From Valencia hispanica (lineage: Eukaryota; Chordata; Actinopteri; Cyprinodontiformes; Valenciidae), in NCBI GenBank assembly GCA_963556495.2, contig OY747713.1, positions 1,351,321 to 1,415,320 on the forward strand: 64,000 nt of DNA. The letters are read 5' to 3'. Below the pieces are notes generated by a model. It saw only the letters and a list, made by a program, of their open reading frames with translations. It ran no database searches and had not been told where the DNA came from. Positions within the stretch are counted from its first letter, which is position 1; the number at the start of each line of letters is the position of its first letter. Shown piece after piece: positions 1 through 34,136 of the stretch. The position numbers and the translations under genes are program-made.

Positions 1-258
1 GTGAGGTAAAGTGGAAACAACTGAAACAAGAATAAAAAATAAAAAATATCTCAAAAACTAAACCTCAAATCTGTCATATTTTGACATTTGTAGAGAGAGA
101 AGAAGTACCTGAAGAGTTTGATATAAAATATGTGTATGGTGTAAAAAAGTCATCTTATTAAAAAATAAATTCCGATACCGATAATTTCCGATATTACATT
201 TTAATGCCAATATCGGCCGATAATGACTTTAGGCCAATAATATCGGACATCCCTAGTA
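1..258. repeat. Probable DNA-transposon terminal fragment (ATCGG-rich)
   Basis: Positions about 165-258 are built from recurrent GATA/ATCGG words and end in a phrase of the type ATATCGGACATCCCTAG. I recognise this as a common dispersed terminus in fish genomes, probably of a non-autonomous hAT-type element. Only one end is inside the window, so neither the inverted repeat nor the target duplication can be checked. The first 160 bases are AT-rich and hold no reading frame that I recognise. The piece lies in the intron before the xkr exon. Confidence 0.35.
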
Positions 259-421
259 AACAATGAAGATTATTTTAGATTAGGGTATAATTTAGTACCC
301 AGAATTGCTGATCTGTTCACCAACAGAACCTTCCAGAACACAAATTGTTGACGGAGGGTTTTTAGTGTTATACTTTCATCTGTTTTCTTAATGTTGTCAT
401 GTCATCTGTCTTCCTTGTCAG

Positions 422-1350
422 TGATAAAAACCCTGGTTTCATTGCTGAGCCTTGCACTCTCTGAGGTCAAGTACTACCGCTCACTCATCTCCTCCTTCCC
501 TGAGGACATTGACCACGGAGGTTGTGGTTGTTGTGGACATCGATGCTGGAAGGCAAAACGGTTGGTGGGCTACTTCTTCTGGAACCTGATCCTTCTGTCG
601 TGTCGCCTTGTTGCCCTCGCCCTCTTCGCCTCCGTAGAGCCCTGCTTCATCTTTACCCACTTCATCTGCTCCTGGCTGGTCCTGTTCTTCCTCGCCACCT
701 ACCTAGACACAAACTTCATGAAGTGTAAAGGAGGGAGGTGGCTGTTCCAAGGCACCCTGGGCCTCATCTGGTACTTCAGCTGGTTCAGCGGGGTGGTGAG
801 GGGGAAGACCTTCAAAAGGATGCTCTGCTACCACATCTACATGCTGGTGGACATCTGTTTCCTCTGTGGGATGTGGTACTGGAAAATGAGTTTGGATCCA
901 CCTCACATTGAAATCTCGTGTTTGAAAGTTGTCATCGCTGCTGTAAGTGTGCCGGCTCTTTATGTCTGTGGGCTGGTTTTAAAGTGGTATTATTTCTTTG
1001 AAAACCACCCACGCCAGGAAGAAAATGACCAGAAAGAAGGCAACATGGAGGAGGAGCAAGAACCCAGTTTAACGAACCCAACAGAACCCAGCGGGGAGGT
1101 CTGGATTTGTGTGAAGAAGCAGAAACAACACTGCTTACAGATATTTAAAAACCTGGTATTCTATGTCTTTTATTTGTTCCACTGTTTAATTCAGTCCCCC
1201 TCTTTAAATAAAATCCCCGGTTTAAATCGGCTCCCTTGTGTTAAGGATTACCGGGATGAACTTGAATTTGAAGCCATCGACTTCTCGCATCATGAATCAT
1301 CTTGCAGCAACAAGAGAATGGAGGAGTTGGCTAACAGCTTTTACAGTTAA
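422..1350 (+). CDS. XK-related protein (Xkr8/Xkr9-like), terminal coding exon
   Basis: This is the 3' exon of an XK-family multipass plasma-membrane protein. Xkr8 and Xkr9 are caspase-activated phospholipid scramblases that expose phosphatidylserine during apoptosis. A pyrimidine-rich acceptor ending in AG at 420-421 opens the exon in phase 1, and the frame runs 309 residues to TAA at 1348-1350; the in-frame ATG at 391 lies inside the intron. The protein shows hydrophobic segments separated by short loops, for example a Trp/Phe-rich stretch around LIWYFSWFSGVV, then a charged tail of about 110 residues. The tail holds acidic DxxD-like sites (DYRD, then EAID) near the C-terminus, where Xkr8 relatives carry their caspase cleavage site. 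Earlier exons lie left of the window. The family call is firm; which paralogue is not. Confidence 0.8.
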
Positions 1351-1956
1351 TAATCCGATGCTTGTGATGCTTTTGTTTTACATGAAAAACATCACCTGTC
1401 AGGGCTTGATTTAGCCAGCCCCACTAAGGGGAGAAGGACTCTGGCCAAAACAACCAAATAACATCACTGATGGACAGTAACCCCCCCCAACCCATGCATG
1501 ACAATGTTGCAGAACCAGAGAGCACCTTCAGCGACAGGATCTTAAATGCATGAAGGAACGTTATCAAAGGTCCTTTCTCACAGCAGTTGTTGACTCTAGA
1601 ACCAGAACTGCTCCCAATTTTGCATTTCTTCTCTTTTTTTTTACTTTTTAAATCTGTCCTTTCAGTTTTTTTTCTTTTATTTATATCTTTTTTCTTTATT
1701 TTGTGTGTATTTGTTTGTCATTTTATTTCTTTAGTTCTGTACACAGCATGGCTTATATCAGTCATAGCATCAGTCGTCTGCTTTTTTGTGCAAAAGTCCT
1801 AAGAAATGTATCCATATCTAGGCCTGTTGTTCTGGCCTTCTCGTGAGCCACAGCACGAGAGAAAGTGGAGAAAGAGCTCTGGCATGATGCAGATGATATT
1901 CCATCACATACATGCGGTGGAGCTGAGGAAAGGCATTCTTATACCCGTGTAGATAT
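1351..1956 (+). other. xkr 3' flank / likely 3' UTR, no gene
   Basis: This follows the xkr stop directly. It contains a T-rich stretch (about 1618-1710) and no coding signal that I can support. Part of it is presumably 3' UTR; I see no convincing AATAAA close to the stop. Confidence 0.4.
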
Positions 1957-4150
1957 TTGCAAATGGTGGAGAGGTCTACAAACTTTACATTGCCATCATC
2001 ATCAGTCTTTTTGAGTTATTTTTCCAACATTATTTTTGCAACAAGAATCTCATTTCAAAGTTTGTCACTGTCACTTCCTACCATTTTGTGCAGAGGACTT
2101 AACATGGCAACATCCAGTGGAGTTTTGTCCATATCTGTGAGTAAACAACTTGAATTTCTGGCCTTAAATGTTGAGGTGTACAAAGGCATGACTGTCACTG
2201 TCGTTGGAAGCTACAGACCACCCTGCTGTAGCTGACACCCTTCAGACGCTGTCACAGCTTTTATCACAGCTGCAGTACAGTGAGATTGTCCTGGCAGGTG
2301 ATATGAACTGGGACTGGTTCAAACCTGCTTCAGACGGATTGAAGTGTCTTTGCTGTGAATTAAATCTTACATAATTAATTGAGTCTCCTACTCGCCCAAA
2401 TCCAAAACATCTAGAGAAATCTACTCTGATTGATTTGCGATTGACAAATAAACCCCCCCCTAAATTTTCTGAAATTACTGTGTTTGCTAATGACATCAGT
2501 GATCATTGTACGATTGCTGCAATTAGGAATTCCAAAATCCAGGCCTCGATGCATTGAAAAACGTGATATGAAACGTTTCTTTTTACAAGGCTTTACACAT
2601 GATTTATTTTTATTTTTATTGGGACCGCATTAGGCTTATTGATGATGTTGAAATAGCCTGGGAATACTTTCATGATGGACTTCTGCAACTTATTAACAAA
2701 CATGCTCCTTTGCGTGAGTTCAAAGTCACGGGACGAGACAATCCTTGGTTTTTGCCGGAGCGCAGCAAACATCTTCATGAGAGGGATGTGGCTTGGGCAA
2801 AGGCTAGGAAAACAGAGGTGGAGGCCGATAGGATTAATTTCAGACGACTACGAAACCAGTTCACAGCAGCTGTCCGACATGCCAAATCTGTCAATACTAT
2901 CTAGCGGCTACTACAGACAATCTAAATAACCTTAGGACCTTCTGGAAGACTATCAAGTCCATTTCTTCAACTAAATCTCATAATGAACTGCCTTCCCATA
3001 TCATTAGGGACGATATTCCTATCTCGGACAGATTGGCGATGCTAGAATGTTTTAATGAACACTTTGTTGCATCTGGTTCTTTGTTTGACCAATCTCTAAC
3101 TCAAAAAAACCTCCCTTCTTATGGTAATGCTGCTGGAAGATGTTGTGTTGGCCAGCCTTTTTCTTTAACCTTTACCCCATTTTCAATCAACGATGTACAT
3201 AAAGCTTTAGTGTCACTGGACATCAAAAAACCTGCTGGCCCAGATTGTTTAGAGCCATATTTTTAAAAAATCGCTGCAGATTTTATTGCTCATGTATATC
3301 TTAAATTTGTCTTTGGTTCAGAATGTTATGCCATCGATCTGGAAATCTGCCTATGTCCTCCTTGTTAAAGGGAGGGGATCCTACCTTGCTAAACAACTAC
3401 AGGCCTATCTCCAACTTGTCTGTGCTGTCAAAGGTCTTAGAACGACTAGTAAGTGAACAACTGAAAGAATTCCTGAGTGTTAATAATATTCTCTCAGAGA
3501 TTCATCGGGTTTCAGAAAGGAACATAGTACCATCTCTGCTTCACTGAAGGTTGTGAATGACCTCATTGAGGCAATGGACACCAACAAGATGTGTGCAGCT
3601 CTTTTCGTCGATCTCTTCTAAGCTTTTAACACGGTGAACCATTGTATTTTAAAACAGAGACTGCTCAATATTGGTCTTTCTGAGAAGGCAGCTGGTTGGT
3701 TTGAAAATGATCTCTCAGATAGGACTCAGTGCATCACCTTTGACGGTATCTCTTCAAGTTTCTTACAAGTTGTATCAGGGGTTCCACAGGGCTCAGTGCT
3801 AGGCCCACTTTTATTCACCATTTATGTAAATGACCTCGGTTCAAATGTCCACAATGTTCTATTCCATTTTTATGCTGATGACACAATCATTTACAGCTGT
3901 GGAGAAACCCTTCACCAGACCTTTGAGTACCTGCAGGATGCCTTTGACACTGTACAATCTCCACTATCTGACTTTAAGCTTGTGTTGAATGCAAATAAAA
4001 CCAAGATGGTCCTGTTCTCAAATAATAGGAACTCCACAGCTATCCCCCCAAACATTGTCACCCTGCAGGGAAATCTAATAGAGCGTGTGGCTGAGTACAA
4101 GTACTTGTGGGTCTTGTACTTGACGACAATTTGACTTTTAAGGCTCATAT
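1957..4150 (+). mobile_element. Degenerate non-LTR retrotransposon (Jockey/CR1/L2-type LINE)
   Basis: Conceptual translation in shifting frames gives first an APE-type endonuclease. Its signs are a GSYRPP motif near 2205, LAGDMNWDW near 2295, a region of the type STLIDLRLTN near 2425, and NDISDHC near 2490. It is followed by a reverse transcriptase: KKPAGPDC near 3230, NNYRPISNLS near 3390, VSGVPQGSVLGPLLF near 3772 and the catalytic FYADDT near 3868. Reading is broken by stops (for example at 2233, 3264 and 3619) and by frame changes, so no complete ORF2 survives. The LINE superfamily is clear; placement within the CR1/L2/Rex1 group is inference. The copy reads in the same direction as xkr and begins about 600 bp after its stop. 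Confidence 0.85.
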
Positions 4151-4199
4151 CCCAAAATTTAGCCAGGAATCAAACATATTTTGGAGTAGGAATGTGAGT

Positions 4200-5100
4200 A
4201 ATTCTGAAATATCAGTTCTAACTCTGTCCTGATTCCTGTCTGGTTTCTCCCACCAATGAATCTCTTTCTAATCTCTCGTTACCTGTGAAGACCCTGCGTC
4301 ATCTTCACTGCTGCTGGCCTCTGCTCTCCTCCCTGACACAAATTTTACTACTGTGCCAATAAACAGATGAAAATGTGGAAAGCAACATTTTGAAATAGAA
4401 TTAGAATGAGTAGCAGTGAAATTGCTTTGGAAATTTGCCTCAGAGTCCCTTTTGTGCCATATATTTTTTTTCTCAGTTACTTATATTCTCTTTTCACCTG
4501 ATCAGACCCTCCCTAACCCCGCTCTGTGTTTTCTGACAAATATTTCTTTCAAATTAGAGGGAAGCAGTAAAGTTCTGCACAGAAATGAAAGAGAATTGGG
4601 TTTATTCCTAGCATGAACTGACTAGTAACGGATGTAAAATAGGCAACATTAGTATTGTTAAGTAGCTACATATATTGATATGTACTCACTAGTCATCATT
4701 TAGCTAACATCATCTGCATGCAACAGCATAACTCAACTTACATAGCTTGTTTGGAAAAAAACTCAAAAGATTTTGCCTCATGCTGTGTCTGGATCGGTAG
4801 CTGAACATGCTGCTCGGCTCAGCAGAACGCACACGCTTGAGGTGCGTTTAAAGACTGCTCGGAAAAACACGCTGCAGCATATTAACGGATTAAACGGGTC
4901 AAAAAAGTGTGGGGGACATTTACCCCATCCGCGTCTGTTATGCCAATGTTAATGGGGGCAGATGCCCTAATGAGCCACAGGAAGGATTGTTTATTTAAGA
5001 ATCAAGCACAACCCGACCTGACGTAAACCATCGCCCAGCGGATCACTTCGGGAAGTGTCCCGACGCTCCCGATGGCCAGTCTGCCACTGACAGTGGATAT
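4200..5100. other. No gene recognised
   Basis: This is AT-rich sequence between the LINE and the hAT-like remnant. No open frame resembles a known protein. It may include terminal sequence of either neighbouring element, but I could not find paired inverted repeats by eye. Confidence 0.4.
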
Positions 5101-5109
5101 AAGAAATAT

Positions 5110-6108
5110 CCTTCCCTCCCTTCTTTTGCAATAAGGCCTGAACCCCAACGCCACTCATGACAGAAGCTCCATCATAGCACTGATCCTTTCAGCTGCACTA
5201 AAGCCTGAGTCAGAAAGATGCTCAACAATTTGGGTGGTACTAAATTGAGCATTTAACTGACTGAGGTCAAGCAGACCAATCAGGTGTTCATCTGGAATGC
5301 CTTTGCAGACAAATCTAACCATGACTGACCGATTCTCCACATTGCATCTGTCCCTAGTTCCATCACTTTTAATGCAAAACCCAGCATAATCTGGTTTGTC
5401 ATTATTTTCTTTGATCTTATTCAATACCATTTTGGCCAGTGTTTCATTAATTTTGTTTTGCATGTTGTGAAAGGTGTGTTTTGCATTCGGTCGAATGCGT
5501 TTGTTTATTTCATTAAATTTGGGGTCCTTTGCCAGTGTGTAGTCAACCGTTTTTAAGAACAGTCCTGCAGAAAAATCATCATCATTTGAGCTTTCCACAC
5601 TGCCACAAAGTGGAAGTTCATTTACTGCTAGGAACTGAACTACTTCTCCAATTGTTTTTATATAATATCTATTTGTTCCATTTGTCTGGGATTTATTAAA
5701 TTACCAATGGTTTCCCCTGTGTCCTCTTTCTGGAAGATTTCAGACCAGGTTTTTGCATTTTTTATGTGGCATTGACTTGATGGGTGCTTTGTGAGACCCT
5801 TTTCCTTTTCCAAAGCCTGTTTTCTGATTATTAAATCCTTGTGTGAAAACCAAATCCATTTTATTGTTCCCCCCATATTTACAACATGGGAAACAAAAGC
5901 ACGCATCAGGATTTGCTGAGCTATGGTCTCCCACGATACCAGCCCGGGCAGAATGAGCGGGCGTTCTTCCCAACATGGAGAACACCAGAGCTGTGGGTTG
6001 TGACGGTATTGTAGTGTTCAAGCCTATGTTTACATCACCTGCATCGGCCACGGCTGGGCTGGGAGCGGCGGGGACAGTGGGGGCTGCGCTAGCTTTTAGC
6101 TTTAGCAA
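5110..6108 (-). pseudogene. Decayed hAT-like transposase (TTF-zinc-finger/ZMYM-type)
   Basis: Three overlapping minus-strand frames together read as one hAT-like transposase of the kind often annotated as zinc finger MYM-type protein 1-like in fish. The first segment (about 6108-5800) holds a TTF-type zinc-finger motif, CFCFPCCKYG, followed by FTQGFNN. The second (about 5810-5660) continues with a KHPSSQCHIKN motif typical of the end of that domain. The third (5598-5155) matches the DUF4371-like core, ending near DLSQLNAQF. Near 5170-5190 the frame must change to continue into a CYDGASVMSG motif, the usual sequence before the catalytic centre. At least two frameshifts, and no downstream half, mean it is non-functional. 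Confidence 0.75.
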
Positions 6109-6324
6109 CCAGAGATCTGCGCATAGTCGACTCAGGTCACTTCAAATTACAAAAGAGAGCGATAGAGAGACAGGGAGAGAACGAGAACACTTTAAGAGAA
6201 AGACCAACCAAATAATAAGACAGTGGAAGAAAACGTAAACCAGTGGCTAAGCTCAGAGTGTCTGCATGCTCTGCTGTGACTGTGAAGTAAGTGAGACGTG
6301 GAGCGGCCACACCTTCCCTATGTA

Positions 6325-6600
6325 AATACCAATCAGTAGCTACTTTGGCTCCCTGTTAAATCCAGAATAGAATCTAAGATCCTTCTTCTTCCATATAAAG
6401 CCCATAATAATCAGCTCCATCATACATCAGAGATCTGATTGGTCCATATGTTCCTAACAGAGCCCTTCACTCTCAGACTGCAGGTTTACTTGTAGTTCCT
6501 AGGATTACTAAAAGTAGAATGGGAGGCAGATCTTTTAGTTATCAGGCTCCTCTCCTGTGGAACCAGCTCCCAGCTTTAGTGGCTTTTCATGAACCGATGG
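6325..6600 (+). mobile_element. LINE 3' (ORF2 C-terminal) fragment
   Basis: Translation across frames gives the C-terminal signature of fish LINE ORF2: a start of the type LPVKSRIESKILLL, then RSQTAGLLV-like and GGRSFSYQAPLLWNQLP-like phrases near 6470-6575. It is short and frameshifted. It could be the 3' tail of a CR1/L2-group element inserted independently of the copy at 1957-4150. Confidence 0.6.
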
Positions 6601-6604
6601 GTGG

Positions 6605-6980
6605 CGCTGCTGAGCTGACTGCCGCCCACAAAAAGGGAGCGTTCTGTGAAAGTTGAATTCTTTTTGTAATAAACTCTTGTATTTTGGAATGTTATTATTC
6701 CACATACATGTGTAGAAACTTGTTGTTCAAAGAACGCCAAGAACTTATTCCTTCATCTATTGTTTAATTATCTCAGCCTTATCAGGCAGGTAATCATAAA
6801 TAATATTTATATTATATTATAATTAACTGAGACTGAACAATTTGGGTATTATTTCCTGGATCCCAGGATGGTGCCCCAAACTTGGTAATTTTGACATAAA
6901 ATTATTAACCTTATATTTGCCCTAAGCAATTATTCATAATTATTCATAGCCAAAACCTACCTACCTATCTGAGTGACTAC
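6605..6980. other. No gene recognised
   Basis: AT-rich spacer before the GGAT array. Nothing in it can be supported as coding. Confidence 0.4.
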
Positions 6981-6984
6981 ACGG

Positions 6985-7472
6985 GTGGACAGATGGATGG
7001 ATGGGTGGATGGATGGATGGATAGACGGATGGATGGATAGACGGATGGATGGATAAACGGATGGATGGATGGATAGACGGATGGATGGATAGACGGATGG
7101 ATGGATAAACGGATGGATGGATGGATGGATGAATGGATGGATGGGTGGGTGGGTGGATGGATGGATGGATAGACGGATGGATGGATGGATGGATAGATGG
7201 ATGGATGGATGGATAGACAAATGGGTGGGTGGGTGGATAGATGGATGGATGGATGGATGGATGGATGGATGGATGGATGGATGGATAGACGGATGGATGG
7301 ATGGGTGGACGGATGGATGGATGGATGAATGGACGGATGAATGGATGGATGGGTGGGTGGGTGGATGGATGGATGGATAGATGGGTGGGTGGATGGATGG
7401 ATGGATGGATGGATAGACAGATGGGTGGATGGATGGATGGATGGATGGATGGATGGATAGACAGATGGGTGG

Positions 7473-7506
<34 letters not shown>

Positions 7507-8124
7507 AGACAGATGGGTGGATGGATGGACGGATGGATGGATGGGTGGATGGATGGATGGATGGATGGGTGGATGGATGGATAGACGGATGGATGGATGG
7601 GTGGACGGATGGATGGATGGATGAATGGACGGATGAATGGATGGATGGGTGGGTGGGTGGATGGATGGATGGATAGACGGATGGATGAATGGATGGATGG
7701 GTGGGTGGGTGGATGGATGGATGGATAGACAGATGGGTGGATGGATGGGTGGATGGATGGATGGATAGACAGATGGGTGGATGGATGGATGGATGGATGG
7801 ATGGATAGACAGATGGATGGATGGATGGATGGATGGATGGGTGGGTGGGTGGATGGATGGATGGATAGACAGATGGGTGGATGGATGGGTGGATGGATGG
7901 ATAGACAGATGGGTGGATGGATGGATGGATGGATGGATAGACAGATGGGTGGATGGATGGGTGGATGGATGGATGGATAGACAGATGGGTGGATGGATGG
8001 ATGGATGGATGGATAGACAGATGGATGGATGGATGGATGGATGGGTGGATGGATGGATGGATGGATGGATGGATAGACGGATGGGTGGATGGATGGATGG
8101 ATGGATGGATAGACAGATGGGTGG

Positions 8125-8160
<36 letters not shown>

Positions 8161-8177
8161 ATGGATGGATGGATGGA
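6985..8177. repeat. (GGAT)n tetranucleotide array with ordered variants, about 1.2 kb
   Basis: The array is almost pure tandem GGAT/ATGG. It is interrupted by recurring variant units (GGGTGGGTGGGT, GATAGACAGATGG, GATAGACGGATGG, GGACGGATG, GATGAATGG). Because 4 and 3 share no factor, all frames stay open for long stretches and produce meaningless ORFs of the type MDGWMDGW (+) and SIHPSIHP (-). The variants recur in blocks, which suggests repeated segmental duplication inside the array rather than pure slippage. It is not coding. Confidence 0.95.
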
Positions 8178-8179
8178 TT

Positions 8180-9213
8180 TTTATCTTAATCTTGAGTGAC
8201 TGTAAACATGTTAGAGGAATTCAGAAGTGAATAAGATGTTTTCATGTAGATGACAGTAGCTGATCTCCTTGGCTCAGTTTTTCATTGGTAGCATCAGTAA
8301 CTGAAGCGGTGCATCATGCTGCCACTCTGTTCTCTCTATCAGACACATTTCTGGACTTGTTTTCATGCTTTTTGTTGCTCTAATTTCTTTTGTTGTTTTT
8401 ACTTATCTATTTTCTTCTGTAAACTTCTGTCACTTTGTGCTGTCTTCACTGTCTTTGAAACGAGCTCTATAAATGAAGACTGATAGTTGGAAATGTGAAA
8501 AAATATATGTTTTTTCAATCATTGTTTCCTCTGATAGTAATAAATTAATAAATCCCCTCTAAGATTGGATTAGGTTAATACATGTCTCCTGACGAAGGAG
8601 AAAATAACACTAAATAAAAGACTCATTTGACTCTTTAGAGATTAAATTTGTGAGCAAACATAATCATCACATTTTAAGGATATGTTTGTTACTGTTATCA
8701 CCGTGGAATATTCAGACTCAATGTTTACAGCTTTTTAGAACACTTCTCACTTTTTTAAGGTTTTAAAACGTATTAATGAAGTTCATTTGTGCAATTTTGT
8801 TTGAATAAAATAGAAGTAAAGCAGCTGTATAAATAAACGTGAAATGTTATCGAAATGTTTAAAATGCTGAGCGAGCGATCTGCAAGATATTTATAGTGTA
8901 GTGCAAGTATTGGTATTGAAACATGTTTATTTTGTATATTTTTTATTCATGTTTTATCTGATAATCTGAGCCTCTCAGGCCTCCATAAACCTGCAGCTCT
9001 GACGTCACTATGATGCCTGCTCTAGTTTTGAATTAATCATTAAAAATAATTCAAAATAACATATAATTAGTGATAAATGTCTAATAATACGACGACTCTG
9101 GAACTCCAGGTTAGAAATGAGAGATTAATTAAAATAATAAAATTCAGATCAGATTAAAATCTGAACTAAATTAATTATGAAATGAAAACAACTGAGATTT
9201 TCATCTTTTATCA
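8180..9213. other. No gene recognised
   Basis: AT-rich spacer between the GGAT array and the 3' end of the PI-PLC gene. No coding signal is seen. Confidence 0.4.
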
Positions 9214-9219
9214 TTTATT
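9214..9219 (-). terminator. Candidate poly(A) signal of the PI-PLC gene
   Basis: On the minus strand the hexamer AATAAA lies about 35 bp past the stop codon at 9254-9256. It is the first canonical hexamer downstream and would give a very short 3' UTR. It supports the view that a transcript crosses the long repeat and ends here. Confidence 0.55.
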
Positions 9220-9253
9220 TTCCTTCTTCAGATCAAAGACGTTTTAGGAAGTT

Positions 9254-12200
9254 TTAGCGCCCCCTGTGGCAGTGACGCACTCGCCATGCTGGTTCCTGTT
9301 TGTGCTTTATTTTGAAAGGGATTCCAGGAAGTACCACAGGGTGAGGCCCCAGGGCTCCTGGTCCAGGTTCTGTTGGAGGTTCTACTCTGGGTAACGGTCC
9401 TGGTTCTTCTCCATGTTCTGCTGGTTCTGTTCCATGTTTTCCTTCAGGTTCTCCTGGTCTTAGTTCTGATCCTGGTTCCTTAGGTTGGTTTTCAGGTTCT
9501 ACTGGTTTTTCTGTGGGTTCTGCTCCATCAGGTCCTGGTTCCGCTGAATCAGGACCTGGTTCTTCTGGTTTTGTTCCAGGTTGTGTAGGTTCTTCTAAAG
9601 GTTCTGTTCCAGGTTCTCTTCCTGGTTCCACTCCTGGTTCTCCTCCAGGTTCTTCTGCAGGTTGTTCTGCAGGTTCCGTTCCTGGTTCCTCTCCAGGCCC
9701 TCCTGGTTCTGATCCTGGTTCTTTTGCAGGTTCTGTTCCTGGTTCCTTTCCAGGTTCTCCAGGTTCTGCTCTAGGTTCTCCTGGTTCTGACCCTGGTTCT
9801 TCTGCAGGTTCTGTTCCTGGTTCCTCTCCAGGTTCTCCAGTTTCTGCTCTAGGTTCTCCTGGTTCTGACCCTGGTTCTGATCTTGGTTCCTCTCCAAGTT
9901 CTGCTCTAGGTTCTCCTGGTTCTGACCCCGGTTCTGATCCTGGTTCTTCTGCAGGTTCTGTTCCTGGTTCCTCTCCGGTTTCTCCATTTTCTGCAGTAGG
10001 TTCTCCTGGTTCTGTTCTTGGTTCCTCTCCAGGTTCTCCTGGTTCTTCTGCAGGTTGTTCTGCAGGTTCTGTTCCTGGTTCCTCTCCAGGTTCTGCTTTA
10101 GGTTCTCCTGGTTCTGATCCTGGTTCTTCTGCAGGTTGTTCTGCATGTTCTTTTCCTGGTTCCTCTCCAGGTTCTCCTGGTTCTGCCCTAGGGTCTCCTG
10201 GTTGTGACTCTGGTTCTGATCCTGGTACTTCTGTGGGTTCTGTTCCTGGTTCCTCTCCAGGTTCTCCTGGTTCTGATCCTGGTTCTTCTGCAGGTTCTTT
10301 TCCTGGTTCCTCTCCAGGTTCTGATCCTGGTTCCTCTCTAGGTTCTTCTGAAGTTTCGGTTCCTGGTTCTTCTGCATGTTCTGTTTCTGGTTCCCCTCCA
10401 GGTTCTGCTCCTGGTTCTTCTGCCTGCTCTGTTTCTGGTTCCCCTCCAGGTTCTGCTCCTGGTTCTTGTGCATGCTCTGTTTCTGGTTCCCCTCCAGGTT
10501 CTGTACCTGGTTCCTCTCCAGGTTCTCCGTTTTCTGCACTAGGTTCTCCTGGTTCGGATCCTGGTTCCTCTCTTGTTTCTTCAGAAGGTTCTTTTGCAGA
10601 TTCTGTTCCTGGTTCCTCTACAGATTCCGCTCCTGGTTCTGCATCTGGTTCTCCTGGTTCAGATCCTGGTTCTTCTGCAGGTCCTTTTCCTGGTTGCTCT
10701 CCAGGTTCTGTTCCTGGTTCTTCTGCATGTTCTGTTTCTGGTTCCCCTCCAGGTTCTGTTCCTGGTTCTTCTGCATGCTCTGTTTCTGGTTCCCCTCCAG
10801 GTTCTGTTCCTGGTTCTTCTGCATGCTCTGTTTCTGGTTCCCCTCCAGGTTCTGTTCCTGGTTCTTCTGCATGTTCTGTTTCTGGTTCCCCTCCAGGTTC
10901 TGTACCTGGTTCTTCTGCATGTTCTGTTTCTGGTTCCCCTCCAGGTTCTGTACCTGGTTCCTCTCCAGGTTCTCCGTTTTCTGCACTAGGTTCTCCTGGT
11001 TCGGATCCTGGTTCCTCTCTTGTTTCTTCAGAAGGTTCTTTTGCAGGTTCTGTTCCTGGTTCCTCTCCAGATTCCGCTCCGGGTTCTGCATCTGGTTCTC
11101 CTGGTTCGGATCCTGGTTCTTCTGCAGGTCCTTTTCCTGGTTCCTCTCCAGGTTCTGTTCCTGGTTCTTCTGCATGTTCTGTTCCTGGTTCCCCTCCAGC
11201 TTCTGTTCCTGGTTCTTCTGCATGTTCTGTTTCTGGTTCCCCTCCAGGTTCTGCTCCTGGTTCTTCTGCATGCTCTGTTTCTGGTTCCCCTCCAGGTTCT
11301 GTTCCTGGTTCTTCTGCATGTTCTGTTTTTGGTTCCCCTCCAGGTTCTGTACCTGGTTCCTCTCCAGGTTCTCCGTTTTCTGCACTAGGTTCTCCTGGTT
11401 CGGATCCTGGTTCCTCTCTTGTTTCTTCAGAAGGTTCTTTTGCAGATTCTGTTCCTGGTTCCTCTACAGATTCCGCTCCTGGTTCTGCATCTGGTTCTCC
11501 TGGTTCAGATCCTGGTTCTTCTGCAGGTCCTTTTCCTGGTTCCTCTCCAGGTTCTGTTCCTGGTTCTTCTGCATGTTCTGTTCCTGGTTCCCCTTCATGT
11601 TCTGTTTCTGGTTCCCCTCCAGGTTCTCCGTTTTCTGCACTAGGTTCTCCTGGTTCGGATCCTGGTTCCTCTCTTGTTTCTTCAGAAGGTTCTTTTGCAG
11701 ATTCTGTTCCTGGTTCCTCTACAGATTCCGCTCCTGGTTCTGCATCTGGTTCTCCTGGTTCAGATCCTGGTTCAGATCCTGGTTCTTCTGCAGGTCCTTT
11801 TCCTGGTTCCCCTCCAGCTTCTGTTCCTGGTTCTTCTGCATGTTCTGTTTCTGGTTCCCCTCCAGGTTCTGCTCCTGGTTCTTCTGCATGCTCTGTTTCT
11901 GGTTCCCCTCCAGGTTCTGTTCCTGGTTCTTCTGCATGTTCTGTTTCTGGTTCCCCTCCAGGTTCTGTACCTGGTTCTTCTGCATGTTCTGTTTCTGGTT
12001 CCCCTCCAGGTTCTGTACCTGGTTCCTCTCCAGGTTCTCCGTTTTCTGCACTAGGTTCTCCTGGTTCGGATCCTGGTTCCTCTCTTGTTTCTTCAGAAGG
12101 TTCTTTTGCAGATTCTGTTCCTGGTTCCTCTACAGATTCCGCTCCTGGTTCTGCATCTGGTTCTCCTGGTTCAGATCCTGGTTCTTCTGCAGGTCCTTTT

Positions 12201-15200
12201 CCTGGTTCCCCTCCAGCTTCTGTTCCTGGTTCTTCTGCATGTTCTGTTTCTGGTTCCCCTCCAGGTTCTGCTCCTGGTTCTTCTGCATGCTCTGTTTCTG
12301 GTTCCCCTCCAGGTTCTGTTCCTGGTTCTTCTGCATGTTCTGTTTCTGGTTCCCCTCCAGGTTCTGTACCTGGTTCTTCTGCATGTTCTGTTTCTGGTTC
12401 CCCTCCAGGTTCTGTACCTGGTTCCTCTCCAGGTTCTCCGTTTTCTGCACTAGGTTCTCCTGGTTCGGATCCTGGTTCCTCTCTTGTTTCTTCAGAAGGT
12501 TCTTTTGCAGATTCTGTTCCTGGTTCCTCTACAGATTCCGCTCCTGGTTCTGCATCTGGTTCTCCTGGTTCAGATCCTGGTTTTTCTGCAGGTTCTTTTC
12601 CTGGTTCCTCTCCAGGTTCTGTTCCTGGTTCTTCTTCATGTTCTGTTCCTGGTTCCCCTCCAGATTCTGTTCCTGGTTCTTCTGCATGTTCTGTTTCTGG
12701 ATCCCCTCCAGGTTCTGTTCCTGGTTCTTCTGCATGTTCTGTTTCTGGTTCCCCTCCAGGTTCTGCTCCTGGTTCTTGTGCATGCTCTGTTTCAGGTTCC
12801 CCTCCAGGTTCTGTTCCTGGTTCCTCTCCAGGTTCTCCGTTTTCTGCACTAGGTTCTCCTTGTTCTGATCCTGGTTCCTCTCTTGTTTCTTCAGAAGGTT
12901 CTTTTGCAGGTTCTATTCCTGATTCCTTTCCAGGTTCTGTTCCTGGTCCTGTTTCAGGTTCTCCTTGCTCTTTTTCTGGTACTTCTCCAGGTTCCTTTCC
13001 TGGTTCTTCTGCACCTTCTTCTCCTGGTTTTTCTCCAGGTTCTGTTTCTGGTTCCTCTCCAGGTTCTGATCCTGGTTCTTCTGCAGATTCTGTTTCTGTT
13101 TCAGGTTCTGATCCTGGTTCTTCTGAATGTTCTGTTTCTGGTCCCCCTCCAGGTTCTGTTCCTGGTTCTTCTGCAGGTTCAGATCCTGATTCCTCTCCAG
13201 GTTCCGCTCCTTGTGCTGCATTTGGTTCTCCTGGTTCAGATCCTGGTTCTTCTGCAGGTTCTGTTCCTGGTTCCTCCCCAGGTTCTGATCCTGGTTCTTC
13301 TGCATGTTCGTTTCCATGTTCTTCTGAAGGCTCATCTGCAGATTCTGATCCTGGTTCTTCTGAAGGTTCTTCTGCAGGTTTTGATCCTGGTTCTTCTGAA
13401 GGTTCTTCAGTGGGTTCTGTTCCTGGTTCCCCTCCAGGTTCTCCATTTTCTGCACTAGGTTCTCCTGGTTCTGCTTCAGGTTCTATTCCTGGTTTCTCTC
13501 CAGGTTCCGCTCCTGGTTCTGCATCTGGTTCTCCTGGTTTAGATCCTGGTTCTTCTGCACTTTCTTCTCCTGGTTTTTCTCCAGGTTCTGTTTCTGGTTC
13601 CTCTCCAGGTTCTGATCCTGGTTCTTCTGCATGTTCTGTTCCTGGTGCTGTTTCAGGTTCTCCTGGTTCTGCTCCAGGTTCTGTTCCTGGCTCTTCCCCT
13701 GGTTCTTTTGCAGGTTTTGCTCCTGGTCCTGTTTCAGGTTCTCCTGGTTCTGTTTCTGGTTCTTCTCCAGGTTCTGATCCTGGTTCTTCTGCATGTTCTG
13801 TTCCTGATTCTGTTTTAGGTTCTCCTGGTTCTGCATCAGGTTTTCCTGGTTCTGCTCCTGGTTCTTCCACAGGTCCAGACCCTGGTTCCTCTCCAGGTTC
13901 TGCTCCTGGTTCTTCTGCAGGTTCTTTTCCTGGTTCTTCCGCACGTTCTTCTCCTGGTTCTGCTCTTGTTTTTTCTCCTGGTTCTGCATCAGGTTCTCCT
14001 GGTTCTGCTCCTGATTCGTCTGCAGGTTCCCTTCCTGGTTCTGCTCCTGGTTCCTCTCCAGGTTCTGCTCCTGGTTCCTCTCCAGGTTCTGCTCCTGGTT
14101 CTTCTGCAGGTTCCTTTCTTGGTTGTTCCACATGTTCTTCTCCTGGTTCTGCTCCTGGTTTTTCTCCAGGTTCTGATCCTGGTTCTTCTGCATGTTCTGT
14201 TCCTGATTCTGTTTTAGGTTCTCCTGGTTCTGCATCAGGTTTTCCTGGTTCTGCTCCTGGTTCTTCCACAGGTCCAGATCCTGGTTCTGCTCCTGGTTCT
14301 TCTGCAGGTTCCTTTCCAGGTTCTTCCGCACGTTCTTCTCCTGGGTCTGCTCTTGTTTTTTCTCCTGGTTCTGCATCAAGTTCTCCTGGTTCTGTTCCTG
14401 GTTCTCCTGCATGTTCTGTTCCTGGTTCTCTTTCAGGTTCTCCTGACTCTGCATCAGGTTCTCCTTTTTCTGACCCTGGTTTTTCTGCAGGTTTTGTTCC
14501 TGGTTCTGCTTCAGGCTCTCCTGGCTCTGCTCCTGGTTCTGTTCTTGGTTCCTCTCCAGGTTCAGATGCTGGTTCTTCTGCAGCTTCTGTTCCTGGTTCT
14601 TCTCTAGGTTCTTTTGTAGGTTTTGTTCCTGGTTCTGCATCAGGTTTTCCTGGTTCTGCTCCTGGTTCTTCCACAGGTCCAGATCCTGGTTCCTCTCCTG
14701 GCTCTGCTCCTGGTTCTTCTGCAGGTTCCTTTCCTGGTTCTTCCGCACGTTCTTCTCCTGGTTCTGCTTTTGTTATTTCTCCTGGTCCTGCTTCAGGCTC
14801 TCCTGGCTCTGCTCCTGGTTCTCCTGCATGTTCTCTTTCAAGTTCTCCTGACTCTGCATCAGGTTCTCCTTTTTCTGACCCTGGTTCTTCTGCAGGTTTT
14901 GTTCCTGGTTCTCTTTCAGGTTCTCCTGACTCTGCATCAGGTTCTCCTTTTTCTGACCCTGGTTCTTCTGCAGGTTTTGTTCCTGGTTCTGCTTCAGGCT
15001 CTCCTGGCTCTGCTCCTGGTTCTGTTCTTGGTTCCTCTCCAGGTTCCTTTCCTGGTTCTTCCACATGTTCTTCTCCTGGTTCTGCTCTTGTTTTTTCTCC
15101 TTGTTCTGCATCAGGTTCTCCTGGTTCTGTTCCTGGTTCTCCTGCATGTTCTGTTTCAGGTTCTCCTGACTCTGCATCAGGTTCTCCTTTTTCTGACCCT

Positions 15201-16882
15201 GGTTCTTCTGCAGGTTTTGTTCCTGGTTCTGCTTCAGGCTCTCCTGGCTCTGCTCCTGGTTCTGTTCTTGGTTCCTCTCCAGGTTCAGATGCTGGTTCTT
15301 CTGCAGGTTCCTTTCCTGGTTCTTCCACATGTTCTTCTCCTGGTTCTGCTCCTGGTTTTTCTCCAGGTTCTGTTTCTGGTTCTATTCCTGGTTCCTTTCC
15401 AGGTTCTGTTCTTGAATCCTCTCCAGGTTCTCCTGGTTCGGCTCCATGTTCTCCTGGTTCTTCTGTAGGTTCCTCTTCATATTCTGTTCCAGGTTCCTCT
15501 CCTGGTTCTGATTGTGGTTTTTCAGTCCCTGGTCCAGATTCTGCTTGTTCTGCTTCCGGCTCTCCTGGTTCCCCTCCTGGTTCTGTTAATGTTCCTGCTT
15601 CGGGTTGTTCTGGTTCTGCTCCTGGTTCTTGGAGGGGTGAACAAGAACATAATCAGGATGTGACCGGTCATTAAACCGGGTATTAAATCAGCTGTGGGTT
15701 CTGATTGTTAATCTGGTTCACATTCTCTAGTATAGAAGATGCAATAGGTTCTGGTTCTAAGTGTATACCAGGTCTGGGTTCTGGTTCATCCCTGTGATTT
15801 TTCTTCTTCTGGGCCTGTGCATCTCTATGTTTTGCGTTCTGACTCACCTGCTGAACCCGGTGGTCCTGTTTCTGGTCCAGGTGGACATGGTTCTGGTCCT
15901 GGTTCTTCTGGCCCCCCAGGACGGCCAGCGGCCGGCCCACAGCCACAGACTCCCAGCTGGATGATGTCTCTGATCAGGTCGGCACTAGGGAAGTCCATAA
16001 TGAGGACGCCTACGCAGCCGGCGCCGGACCTCCCCTTCCGGTTCCTCACCAAGTCGCTGAGCTGCGGGTTGATGGACCGGGCCAGGGTCTTCTGCTGCTG
16101 GACCCTCCCGGCGGCGGTCTCAGTCAGGAGGATGTAATGGCCGCAGAGATGCCGCCTGATGTGTTTTATTTTTCCTTCAACGTCTTTTAGCTTGTTGGAC
16201 TCAAAGAAATGTGATTTATGGTTCTCTGTTCCCACTGGGAACCTCACGTTCTGCAGGAAGATGATCTTCCCCCGGACCTGCTTGAGTTCTGGTACCGACA
16301 CTTTTTTCCAGATTCTTCTTTCAAACTTCTCCATCAGCTTCTTCACCATGCGCGCCACCTTGTCTTTGTAAAGTCCATGTGGCGTCACCTTCATCAGCAC
16401 AGCCTCACTGCGGTGCGAGTCCAGGAAGTCCAGAACCTTCCTGAAGACCGCGGCTAAGGTGGTTCCCTGGGAGAAGATCATTCTGGAATCTACAACGCTG
16501 ACCTGCGTGCTGAAGGGTAAGTAGATCCCAACATGGATGTCAAGATACCGAACTCCAGCTCTCAGCTGCTTTTCCAGAGTCCAAACCTGAGATACGGCGA
16601 GCACTCCTCCTGTTAACGCCAGGCTGTCGTGAGTTCCGGGAATGGCGATGGCTGAGACGGGAATGTCATCCGGGATGGACCTCATCCAGTCCTTGTGGAA
16701 AAGACTGGAATCCAGGTTTGGCTTGTCGTTAAAGCCTCTCTCTGCTCTCACACAGGAGGTCAATCTGGAGAAGGAAACGGTTGACACATGGAGAGATCAT
16801 GTTGGACCAGAGAGTTATTGTTTGTCGAATATGACGGCAGAACTTACAGGGAGAAAACCCAGAGGTGGTGGTGGATCTCCAT
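9254..16882 (-). CDS. Secreted PI-PLC X-domain protein with giant Glu/Pro/Gly-rich repeat tail
   Basis: Three-exon model: 16882-16848, 16764-15848, 15627-9254, joined length 7,326 nt = 2,441 codons plus stop. Exon 1 encodes a signal peptide completed by exon 2 (Met-Glu-Ile..., predicted cleavage after VRA, residue 19). Donors GTAAGT and GTGAGT and pyrimidine-rich acceptors agree in phase (2 and 1). Residues about 38-282 form a bacterial-type PI-PLC X domain: IPGTHDS with His57, VRYLDIHV at 83-90, and an end near MDFPSADLIRDIIQL. Aligned by memory to Bacillus PI-PLC, the first catalytic His is kept, but the DIR arginine is His89 and the YHG histidine is replaced in VVDSRM (102-107), so catalysis is doubtful. 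The remaining ~2,150 residues are tandem EPGTEPAEEPG-like repeats with a unique basic end (WRVRHCHRGR). The nearest relatives are fish 1-phosphatidylinositol phosphodiesterase-like proteins. Expression is unproven. Confidence 0.72.
9330..15627 (-). repeat. 6.3-kb coding tandem repeat (GAACCAGGA-type) with ~399-bp higher-order units
   Basis: On the minus strand the basic words are GAACCAGGA, GAAGAACCAGGA, ACAGAACCTGCA and close variants. In the coding register they give EPG, EEPG and TEPA. Higher-order structure is visible from a marker (plus-strand TTTCTTCAGAAGGTTCTTTTGC) near 10573, 11020, 11419, 11674, 12085, 12484 and 12883, i.e. spacings of 447, 399, 255, 411, 399 and 399 bp, all multiples of three. 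Among the minus frames only the EPG frame is open throughout; the Asn/Gln frame is cut by TAG in most higher-order units. The plus strand is also open in one frame (Gly/Ser/Pro), a by-product of composition. The minus strand is purine-rich. Confidence 0.93.
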
Positions 16883-21500: not shown

Positions 21501-24500
21501 ATATGACGTCACGGAGCTAACGCTAGCTAACGCTAGCAGCATGTAAAATCCTCACTGAGACGTTGTGGAGCTGCATGCTGACTCTCGCTGTACCGACTGT
21601 TTCTCCCCCAGCATAGCTCCACTTTCCACATTATGGTGGTTTTCTCCACGTTTAATGCTCTTCCTTCATCCTGGAGGAAGGAGGCGGAGCCAGCTAATCT
21701 CACCGCCATTCTTCTCCTCGCCCCATGGCAAATGGGGAGCCTAAGCCCCGCCCTTCTACTTCCGGTCTATGGGTCCCCTACTGCCAAACAGAAAAAATGA
21801 ATGAGAGTCAATGGAGCAATAAATTATTTTCTGATCCCGTTTGAAATGCGCCATGGATTGAACATATGATGTCCGTGAATTTTAAAGACACATTTTGATG
21901 CAGGGAAAACGGTCATTTTCGACCGGCGGCAAAAGTTATTTTAGGTTTGGTGTAAAAACACTTAGTGGACTACAACTGAAGAAGGAGAAGGAGAAAAATG
22001 GCGGTGGATCTTAAAGTGTAACTGAACCCCTGAAAAATCATAACCCCGCCCCCAGACAACATTTGAAAAATTCTACAAAGTGGGCGGTGCCAGGAAGCAC
22101 GGAGGGGCGTGGCCAAGTGTTGAGGAGCCGTATCACTTCAATCCGCCGGCTCGGGGCGTTGAGTCGGCGCTGCCCGAGGCCGGCGCTGCTGCTGAGGGAG
22201 AGAGAGACAGGATGGGTCCCGTCTCTGAGTGGTGATGCTAACATAGGCTAACGTTCAAACAGTATGTTAGCTATGCTAACTAAGTGCTAATGTGATAATA
22301 ATGGTAACCTGAAAAACGCAATCCCACTCGAAACTCGCCATGGGGGGCGGTATTAGTGATGTGTCGGTTGTGAACGAACCGTCTCTAAGAGCTAACTCTT
22401 TGAAGTGAACGATGGGAGCCAGTTTATTTATTTTTCATTCCCCCCCCCGCTTGTTTTGGTACATTTGGTACACATTGTTTTGCATTAATTTTGGTGATAC
22501 ATGCACTTTAAGCAACAGAAAATCTGAGGAGCCACTTGGGAGCCGAAAGAGTCGGCTCTTTATGGTGAGCCAAGCCAAAAGGACTGGCTCTCCAAAAACA
22601 GCTGGAATTCCCATCACTAGCCGGTATGTCTGATAGTTTTATCCCCAACGCCACGGGGCGTGTCTGTGAGACCATGGCTGCTGTGACACAGTCGATGCCT
22701 GTGATGTAGAGATGTACCGCTCTCCACCAATCACAACATTCAAATGCAGTAGCCACAGTTCAACCCAAAGGGGGCAGCATTAAGACGTTTTTAGACCAAA
22801 AAGTGTAGAATTAAACAAGTTTACACTCAAATGTAAATAAAACACCAGAAACTGAAAGACTGCATTGCAAAAAAAAGTTGTTTTGGGGTTCAGTTACCCT
22901 TTAAGTTTTATATTTCCACCAGTTCCTGCAGGATTCAACAGCAATGTATCGGTTTTTATGAGATTTTTTTATTATTTGAATGGAACCATTAATGATGACT
23001 GTAATTTTTGTAGTAAAATATAAAGTATAAATGGTAGTTTGTGGCTGTTTTCACCTTCTTGGTTCCAGTGGATCAACTAGATCTAGTAATAAAACTGGAT
23101 GTGTTAAAGTATGAAACATGTTGGAGTGTTTAGAATGATGGGACAGATTTATAAATCACAATATATCGTATCGTCTCCCCAGTATCGCCAGATTTTACCA
23201 ATACACATCCCTATTAAGTATACAGTGGCTTGCAAAAGTATTCGGCTCCTTGAACTTTTCCACATTTTGTCACATTACAGCCACAAACATGAATCAATTT
23301 TATTGGAATTCCAGGTGAAAGACCAAAACAAAGTGGTGTACACGTGAGAAGTGGAACGACAATCATACATGATTCCAAACATTTTTTACAAATAAATAAG
23401 TGAAAAGTGGGGTGTGCATAATTATTCAGCCCCCTGAGTCGATACTTTGTAGAACCACCTTTTGCTGCACTTCCAGCTGCCAGTCTTTTAGGGTTTGTCT
23501 CTACCAGCTTTGCACATCTACAGACTGAAATTCTTGCTCATTCTTCTTTGCAAAACAGCTCCAGCTCAGTCAGATTAGATGGACAGCGTTTGTGAACAGC
23601 AGCTTTCAGATCTTGCCACAGATTCTGGATTGGATTTAGATCTGGACTTTGACTGGGCCATTCTAACACATGGATATGTTTTGTTTTAAACCATTCCATT
23701 GTTGCCCTGGCTTTATGTTTAGGGTCGTTGTCCTGCTGGAAGGTGAACCTCCGCCCCAGTCTCAAGTCTTTTGCAGACTCCGAGAGGTTTTCTTCCAAGA
23801 TTGCCCTGTATTTGGCTCCATCCATCTTCCCATCAACTCTGACCAGCTTCCCTGTCCCTGCTGAAGAGAAGCACCCCCAGAGCATGATGCTGCCACCACC
23901 ATATGTGACAGTGGGGATGGTGTGTTCAGAGTGATGTGCAGTGTTAGTTCTGCATTTTGGTCTCATCTGACCAGAGCACCTTCCTCCACATGTTTGCTGT
24001 GTCCCCCACATGGCTTGTGGCAAACTGCAAACGGGACTTCTTATGGTTTTCTTTTAACAATGACTTTCTTCTTGCCACTCTTCCATAAAGGCCAACTTTG
24101 TGCAGTGCACCACTAATAGTTGTTCTATGGACAGATTCCCCCACCTGAGCTGTAGATCTCTGCAGCTCATCCAGAGTCACCATGGGCCTCTTGGCTGCAT
24201 TTCTGATCAGCGCTCTCCTTGTTCGGCCTGTGAGTTTAGGTGGACGGCCTTGTCTTGGTAGGTTTACAGTTGTGCCATACTCCTTCCATTTCTGAATGAT
24301 GGCTTGAACAGCGCTCCGTGGGATGTTCAAGGCTTGGGAAATCTTTTTGTAGCCTAAGCCTGCTTTAAATTCCTCAATAACTTTATCCCTGACCTGTCTG
24401 GTGTGTTCTTTGGACTTCATGGTGTTGTTGCTCCCAACATTCTCTTAGACAACCTCTGAGGCCGTCACAGGGCAGCTGTATTTGTACTGACATTAGATTA

Positions 24501-33086: not shown

Positions 33087-34052
33087 TCAGGGTTGAGCTT
33101 CTGCCTGGTACTTTTCAACCCTCTGCAGTTTGTGTTGAGGAGGATGAGGAGGCGCTCCGCAACCCAGGATGTGCATCTTGGCCGCGATCCTCCTGAAGCA
33201 GCGGTTTAGCGTGCACCGGACCGCTGCGGACGACAGGTAGAAGATGAACGGATCCAGGCAGGCGTTGAGGGTGCTGGAGAGCAGCGCCAGGTTCCTCCAA
33301 TCCTGATTCTCGCGATGGATGAATCCCACCACATGGGAGGCGTTGTAGGGCCCAAAGCAGACGGTGAACACCACCAATGTCCCGACCGCCAGGCCGATGC
33401 ATCGCAGTCGCCGTCGCCGGCTGATGTTGGGAAGGCGGGACAGGATGAGGATGAAGTTGACGTAGCAGAAGCAGCTGATGATGAAGGGGATGCAGAAGAG
33501 GACGAGGAAGAGCTGCAGGCGAACGGGCAGCAGGATTTCCAGCTCAGCGTCCGAGAAGTTCAGGTAGCAGGTGGGTGGAGGACGGGCGGGCCCGCTGGCG
33601 TTCAAACTCCACTGGGAGTACGGCAGGACGTAGACGAAGCTGAGGTTGCAGGAGGTCACCGCCCAGAAGGTGAAGCAGGCCCACGCGGCGTAGCGAGGCC
33701 GGCGGCACAAAGAGTACCTGAGTGGAAAGGCCACGCCGAGGTAACGCTCCACGCTCACCGCCGTGAGCAGCAGGGTGCTGTTGTAGATGGTGACGTAGAA
33801 GATGAACCCGGTCAGCGGGCACAGCGAGTAGGGCATCAGCCACGCCATGTCGTCGTACGCTTCCTTCATTTTAAACGGCAGGAAGGCCAGAAAAATCAGG
33901 TCTGAGATGGTGAGGTTGAGGAGGAGCACGTCGATGGGCGCCGCCTTGCGACACACCTTCCTGCAGAGGGTGAAGAAGGACAGGATGTTGGCAGGGACCC
34001 CCGTCAGGAAGGTGAGGATGTAGACGGAAAGCAGCAGGCGGCTGTAAAACAT
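33087..34052 (-). CDS. Free fatty acid receptor 2/3-like GPCR
   Basis: A 321-residue rhodopsin-like receptor in a single coding exon, as usual for the FFAR family. These plasma-membrane receptors sense short-chain fatty acids (FFAR2/3) and couple to G proteins. Seven hydrophobic segments are visible. The cytoplasmic end of TM3 has ERY (102-104), and TM7 has DPFIFY in place of NPxxY, as FFAR2 does. The carboxylate-anchoring trio of FFAR2 (Arg180, His242, Arg255) is matched by Arg178 in LLPVRLQL, His240 in YNASHVVG and Arg253 in DWR. The start sits in a good context (CCGCCATG). Human FFAR2 is about 330 residues, so the length is normal. A second family member lies 6 kb to the right on the same strand. 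Assignment to FFAR2 rather than FFAR3 is not possible by eye. Confidence 0.93.
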   Translation of the reverse strand: MFYSRLLLSVYILTFLTGVPANILSFFTLCRKVCRKAAPIDVLLLNLTISDLIFLAFLPFKMKEAYDDMAWLMPYSLCPLTGFIFYVTIYNSTLLLTAVSVERYLGVAFPLRYSLCRRPRYAAWACFTFWAVTSCNLSFVYVLPYSQWSLNASGPARPPPTCYLNFSDAELEILLPVRLQLFLVLFCIPFIISCFCYVNFILILSRLPNISRRRRLRCIGLAVGTLVVFTVCFGPYNASHVVGFIHRENQDWRNLALLSSTLNACLDPFIFYLSSAAVRCTLNRCFRRIAAKMHILGCGAPPHPPQHKLQRVEKYQAEAQP

Positions 34053-34136
34053 GGCGGACGCTCAGATCCGGTTCACGCTCTCTGGGAAGCTGCATGAAAG
34101 GAGACAAAAATCAAGATAAACGGACCATCTGCTCCA

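Follow-up and report, generated by a model that had tools for sequence, protein, structure and literature searches.

The DNA analyzed here, referred to as the window, is the 64,000-nucleotide stretch of Valencia hispanica that corresponds to C16:1351321-1415320 in the genome searched (1.29 Gb, 29 contigs). On its minus strand, ~1.36 Mb from the end of contig C16, lies a predicted gene of three exons and two GT-AG introns, whose joined coding sequence of 7,326 nt (a multiple of three) has a single terminal stop and specifies 2,441 amino acids. The predicted protein consists, in this order, of a signal-like peptide, a PI-PLC X barrel (the head) and 2,124 stop-free codons (the tail). An earlier reading of the same letters by a model (the first-pass annotation) had proposed three exons, canonical introns in phases 2 and 1 and a length divisible by three, all of which was reproduced. 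It had also put the repeat tail at ~2,150 residues; the in-frame fusion was recovered, and the length proved slightly smaller. The features of the locus are as follows.

16848..16882, minus strand: exon 1, coding part, MEIHHHLWVFSL, by direct reading
16765..16847, minus strand: intron 1, 83 bp, GT-AG, phase 2, GTAAGT...CCTTCTCCAG
15848..16764, minus strand: exon 2, the entire PI-PLC X barrel without internal introns (Pfam, PDB sequence matches, AlphaFold2 model, Foldseek)
3' end of exon 2, minus strand: E-P-G-rich stretch GPEEPGPEPCPPGPETGPPGSA
15628..15847, minus strand: intron 2, 220 bp, GT-AG, phase 1
9254..15627, minus strand: exon 3, G-x-E-P repeats over 2,124 codons, closed by TAA
16533..16535, minus strand: His codon in YLDIH (residue 89), at the site of the conserved DIR arginine, alignment column 77
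9587..15452, no strand assigned: minisatellite with a 12-bp basic unit (by proline spacing); Tandem Repeats Finder periods of 24, 36, 48, 60, 399, and 447 bp among others
9306..9311, minus strand: AATAAA within the coding sequence, whose start lies 55 bp ahead of the stop codon
9214..9219, minus strand: AATAAA poly(A) signal, hexamer start 9219, 35 bp past the stop
9345..15674, plus strand: antisense open frame (GSSPGSVP...) of 2,109 codons lacking Met, regarded as a side effect of composition

The signal-peptide-like segment begins in exon 1 and extends to about VRA in exon 2, as judged by direct reading and the hydropathy peak. This putative signal peptide contains a short hydrophobic stretch, LWVFSLLTSCV, recognized from hydropathy. 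The intron 2 donor at 15848, CAG/GTGAGT, received the top score of all GT sites between 17300 and 9100 under a splice weight matrix. Three candidate acceptors for exon 3 (15627, 15621, and 15615) lie 6 bp apart, and the frame is preserved with all of them. The E-P-G reading frame is common to the end of exon 2 and the start of exon 3 (GPEEPGPEPCPPGPETGPPGSA followed by EPGAEPEQPEAG). Intron 2 itself contains apparent decayed copies of the GAACC-type repeat of the array, with 3-5 stops in every one of the three frames, and its retention would lead to a TAG stop at 15825, close behind exon 2. The final ~45 codons of exon 3 are non-repetitive.

The poly(A) signal that the first-pass annotation had placed 35 bp after the stop was found at that distance. 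No A[AT]TAAA hexamer occurs on the minus strand from exon 2 to 9311, and the next ones start at 9311, 9219, 8947, and 8931; the array is therefore likely exonic with or without splicing of intron 2. Use of the in-frame AATAAA (9306-9311) could yield transcripts without a stop codon.

The head matched the Pfam PI-PLC-X family (PF00388) with 30.8 bits, above the curated cut-off of 23.1, in agreement with the X domain named in the first-pass annotation. A PDB sequence search with the head returned 14 matches, all of them PI-PLC. An AlphaFold2 model built from 12 sequences reached a mean predicted local distance difference test score (pLDDT) of 64 and a predicted template modeling score of 0.69, and its best Foldseek match was the Listeria PI-PLC (1aod; E 3.9e-13, TM 0.57/0.62). 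The head is thus modeled as a TIM-barrel fold like that of bacterial PI-PLC.

Catalytic positions were compared in an alignment with all 11 distant PI-PLC relatives, which also entered the model and were obtained from 70 pattern matches in prokaryote genomes; viral contigs searched with the head gave three pattern matches and no relatives. The GTHD histidine (residue 57) is retained in the head and is histidine in 11 of the 11 bacterial rows. Likewise, the MDFP aspartate (residue 269) is retained and is invariant among these rows. The DIR arginine, present in every bacterial row, is histidine (residue 89) in the window gene. At the HHG-type histidine, found in 9 of the 11 rows, the window gene reads VVDSR in a loop modeled at low confidence, and there is no other histidine between residue 89 and the next aligned block of the head. 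In the Bacillus enzyme, the GTHD histidine acts as general base, the DIR arginine binds phosphate and the HHG histidine acts as general acid. As the DIR arginine and the HHG histidine are lost, the head is probably inactive as a PI-PLC, that is, judging from its sequence, probably a pseudoenzyme.

The search of the fish genome with the head gave, among the best candidates scored, a single other match at E ≤ 0.01, at C16:21069043-21069525. This paralog shares 36% identity with the head over ~166 residues and retains the motifs DVRV and IHHG. It has an apparent extra intron within the barrel, and its protein ends soon after the barrel (...IKHFTPKK, then stop). In its 9.9-kb locus no related array was found, and the 30-bp and 14-bp arrays present there are unrelated. 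The computed isoelectric point (pI) of the head is 9.78, compared to 6.11 for the paralog. The window copy thus differs from the paralog in three respects, namely the missing catalytic pair, the higher basicity and the tail. The wider X-domain family comprises 56 exon-level matches in the genome.

The 2,124 residues of the tail include 686 Glu, 435 Pro, 372 Gly, 167 Ala, 127 Thr, 94 Ser, and one Cys (32% Glu, 20% Pro, 18% Gly). Together, G, A, P, E, S, and T account for 1,881 residues (88.6%), and I, L, V, F, M, Y, W, and C for 38; Lys and Arg together number 104. The tail would have a mass of ~216 kDa, a net charge of -607 and a computed pI of 4.05, a value that we take to be the floor of the program. 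In the charge-hydropathy comparison, the mean hydropathy of 0.305 and the mean net charge of 0.286 (boundary -0.302) place the tail far on the disordered side. The acidic and disordered character attributed to it before is therefore borne out: high net charge and low hydropathy predict an intrinsically disordered chain. The mucin-like character also suggested was rejected. Serine and threonine make up 4.4% and 6.0% (10.4% together) in place of a Ser/Thr-rich repeat domain, the tail contains a single cysteine, and no N-glycosylation sequon (N-x-S/T) was found in it.

Composition is uniform along the tail except for the last stretch. The basic unit G-x-E-P corresponds to 12 bp, and a proline spacing of four residues occurs in 267 of the 434 intervals. 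The genome contains six copies of a 30-base unit with two ambiguous positions, all of them inside the window.

The long open frame was weighed against chance. Over the tail, the three minus frames contain 0, 15, and 70 stops and the three plus frames 46, 2, and 24, and the antisense frame listed above contains no Pfam domain. As both strands are open, openness in itself is weak evidence for coding. Neutral evolution was simulated by tandem duplication and substitution, seeded with 72-base segments drawn at random from the actual array. Under the highest load tried, the simulated nearest-copy divergence (.039/.056/.079 and.038/.058/.086) was slightly under that observed (.042/.065/.098). The E-P-G frame was open in none of the 800 simulations at this load, with mean stop counts of 33.2 and 23.4 for transition shares of 0.5 and 0.65, respectively. 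Starting from the consensus unit at the same load, it was open in 0 of 60 (mean stops 29.7), and the two lower loads left it open in 4 of 1,600. Of the 800 highest-load simulations, 100 kept the antisense frame open. Since neutral simulations leave the antisense frame open in part of the runs and, at matched load, never the E-P-G frame, the former appears to be a by-product and the latter is not explained in this way. The E-P-G frame has probably been kept open as protein, and the case for coding rests on stop avoidance, on the splice anatomy and on the frame common to both sides of intron 2.

Substitutions inside the array were also classified. The 113 young between-copy substitutions comprise 29 synonymous, 84 non-synonymous and no stop changes (expected: 28.8, 80.8, and 3.4). 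With longer flanks, stop changes were again absent (3.0 expected for n = 80 and 1.5 for n = 60). Variation is spread almost evenly over the three codon positions (39, 41, and 33 of the 113). For older substitutions, synonymous changes were ~1.6-2.1 standard deviations below expectation (observed/expected 56.5/69.0, 91.5/110.9, and 140.5/158.6); the observed stop counts of this set were disregarded, since single changes had been applied even to codons carrying several differences. As amino acid changes look neutral, within the array only stop avoidance favors coding.

Related arrays were sought throughout the genome. A degenerate pattern of three units, allowing up to two mismatches, gave 580 forward and 70 reverse matches, and its reversed control gave 44 and 6; among the matches listed, all places lie within ~4.2 Mb of a contig end. 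Inspection of 11 regions listed 20 arrays of at least 250 bp, one region having none. Adjacent copies differ by indels in 0 to 13% over these 20 arrays (the four longest: 2, 2, 0, and 6%). Several further sites near contig ends thus carry related arrays, which fits the earlier proposal of a captured minisatellite. Minisatellites containing GAACC or GGTTC recur near contig ends with varied periods (e.g., 11, 12, 18, 19, 30, and 84 bp). In the window itself, a 44-bp minisatellite at 49351-50081 (16.6 copies, GACCAGAACCTCC...) has a motif related to the tail repeat and carries stops in all six frames.

The array at C6:59452984-59455314 (2,331 bp, 12-bp period) belongs to the same motif family and reads GSEP on the minus strand. 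Its GSEP/SEPG frame (776 codons) is interrupted by 13 stops, all of them TAA, and two frames of its plus strand are fully open (777 and 776 codons). The array is about one third as long as that of the window and less diverged between nearest copies (.010/.020/.041), and the same neutral simulation, applied to it, predicts means of 1.5-5.3 stops. We do not rely on it as a strong control, in view of the uniform TAA stops and the frequent TCA/TTA codons.

We lean, with limited conviction, towards a secreted fish gene in which a bacterial-type PI-PLC barrel has turned pseudoenzyme and the last exon is a captured and expanded GAACC-type minisatellite. This agrees in part with the first-pass interpretation, which missed the loss of the DIR arginine and the HHG histidine, the opposite strand left open by composition and the tail-less paralog. 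More tentatively, and at a little under an even chance, the minisatellite has become a natural counterpart of XTEN of 2,100 residues, fused to a dead basic barrel that serves as surface anchor, with only the open frame and the bulk composition under selection. The chain would be spliced and translated as drawn, and its product secreted. The basic head would anchor the protein on acidic surfaces (phosphoinositides, GPI glycans, glycosaminoglycans) without cleaving them, and the tail, disordered and hydrated, would act as a polyanionic brush, adding bulk, retaining cations (e.g., Ca2+) and resisting both folding and aggregation. Selection would maintain the open frame and the hydrophilic composition and be nearly indifferent to exact residues, so that the tail could grow or shrink by unequal exchange.

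Several points weigh against this interpretation. The synonymous/non-synonymous test gave no purifying selection on amino acids within the array, and the absence of frame-shifts had to be rejected as proof of coding, as the C6 array, too, keeps its phase across 2.3 kb. That array is a weak control: its use presumes that it is untranslated, its stops, all being TAA, may go back to one or a few mutational events, and codons one step from a stop (TCA/TTA) make up 145 of its 776 codons versus 45 of 2,124 in the tail. The simulation was run without gene conversion and assumes a single duplication-size distribution, and its divergence match is based on five runs per setting. In the head, the catalytic alignment is uncertain over residues 81-99 of exon 2 (block pLDDT 31 and 39). 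Finally, the putative signal peptide is short on the hydropathy reading.

Four other explanations were weighed. A head gene terminated by the TAG at 15825 with intron 2 retained, the minisatellite being 3' untranslated region (UTR) and its frame open by chance, appears rather unlikely. It accommodates the stop close behind exon 2, an array that is probably exonic anyway given the lack of a poly(A) hexamer before 9311, the neutral-looking amino acid substitutions, and the openness of the window's plus strand and of two plus frames of the C6 array. It leaves unexplained, however, the perfect CAG/GTGAGT donor at 15848, the match of phase and E-P-G frame across intron 2, and zero stops where simulated means are 23.4-33.2 and none of 800 runs stayed open. 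The array, as a subtelomeric minisatellite, could instead have overrun a paralog that had lost catalysis, making the whole locus a recent pseudogene. The two missing catalytic residues, the position ~1.36 Mb from the contig end, as with the other listed arrays, and the unconstrained amino acids in the array would all suit this reading. Yet ~300 head and 2,124 tail codons run without stop or frameshift and the splice sites of both introns are intact, and we regard a pseudogene as quite improbable.

An active PI-PLC with a tail, in which the loop is misaligned and another residue acts as general acid, is unlikely. The retained GTHD histidine and MDFP aspartate speak for it, as do the 2 of 11 bacterial relatives that likewise lack histidine at the HHG place; against it, the DIR arginine is conserved in all 11 bacterial rows and in the paralog and is histidine in the window gene, where no alternative histidine precedes the next aligned block. 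A plus-strand gene for a Ser/Pro/Gly-rich, mucin-like chain (GSSPGSVP) has its 2,109 open codons in its favor, but a frame without Met or Pfam domain that composition opened in 100 of 800 matched neutral simulations makes this highly improbable, and it was rejected.

The favored interpretation, a pseudoenzyme head with a minisatellite-derived tail, can be compared with known systems. The bacterial-type secreted PI-PLCs (Listeria 1aod/2plc, Bacillus; PF00388) resemble the window protein in barrel fold, GTHD histidine, MDFP aspartate and head size; unlike them, it lacks the DIR arginine and the HHG histidine and carries a C-terminal tail of 2,124 residues. A PI-PLC-like protein of trypanosomes, discussed against a background of pseudoenzyme pairs (PMC10051276), is mentioned as a lead only.

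By analogy, the nearest functional likeness of the tail may be XTEN, followed by the acidic disordered otolith proteins. We know of no PI-PLC head among the latter, the Starmaker proteins. Starmaker and Starmaker-like proteins are described as acidic, with disorder and calcium binding proposed (PMC4260845), and their likeness to the tail is one of composition, namely strong acidity. XTEN is described as an engineered, unstructured polypeptide that is composed of six kinds of amino acid and surrounded by a large water shell (PMC8370750). The tail resembles it in the share of G/A/P/E/S/T given above and in being hydrophilic, acidic and presumably unstructured and bulky. It differs in being natural and tandem-repetitive, with 32% Glu (XTEN ~12%) and 2.5 times the length of XTEN864 (PMC8370750).

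The minisatellite origin has parallels of another kind. The evolutionary histories of fish antifreeze glycoproteins offer a comparison, although the repeat in the window is a different one and remains attached to a folded domain, with no implication of an ice-binding motif. These glycoproteins are presented as protein-coding repetitive DNA that is readily lost from assemblies and annotations (PMC3441883). Mucin genes such as MUC2 are reported to contain exonic minisatellites (PMC2065792), and the window gene is likewise predicted to use a minisatellite as a coding exon in a secreted protein, although the tail, with the low Ser+Thr content and one Cys noted above, is not an O-glycosylation domain. 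A literature search for fish and coding minisatellites listed matches that, by title or start of abstract, concern PRDM9 or recombination, and matches for PI-PLC X domain-containing proteins and zebrafish were, by title, off-subject; novelty in print is not claimed on this basis.

If translated, the gene would be a striking case of minisatellite DNA forming the bulk of a vertebrate protein, for which the related arrays in the genome allow comparison. It would also offer a testable example of a protein region in which openness and hydrophilicity, not the residues themselves, are selected; in addition, it would serve as a natural model of unstructured bulking polymers and represent an animal pseudoenzyme descended from secreted PI-PLC. 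Caution is warranted, as GAACC-type repeats of this genome can give very long open frames by composition alone.

Elsewhere in the window, a GATG tetranucleotide array of 297 copies (6992-8178) has all three minus frames open for ~400 codons (Ile-His-Pro-Ser), another instance of repeat DNA with open frames. The segments 23541-24444 (minus strand), 61714-62031 (plus strand), and 2572-4131 (plus strand) resemble, by eye, fragments of Tc1-type transposase and LINE reverse transcriptase. Two single-exon frames on the minus strand (33090-34061 and 39841-40917) look like seven-transmembrane receptors, presumably akin to free fatty acid receptors as judged by eye.

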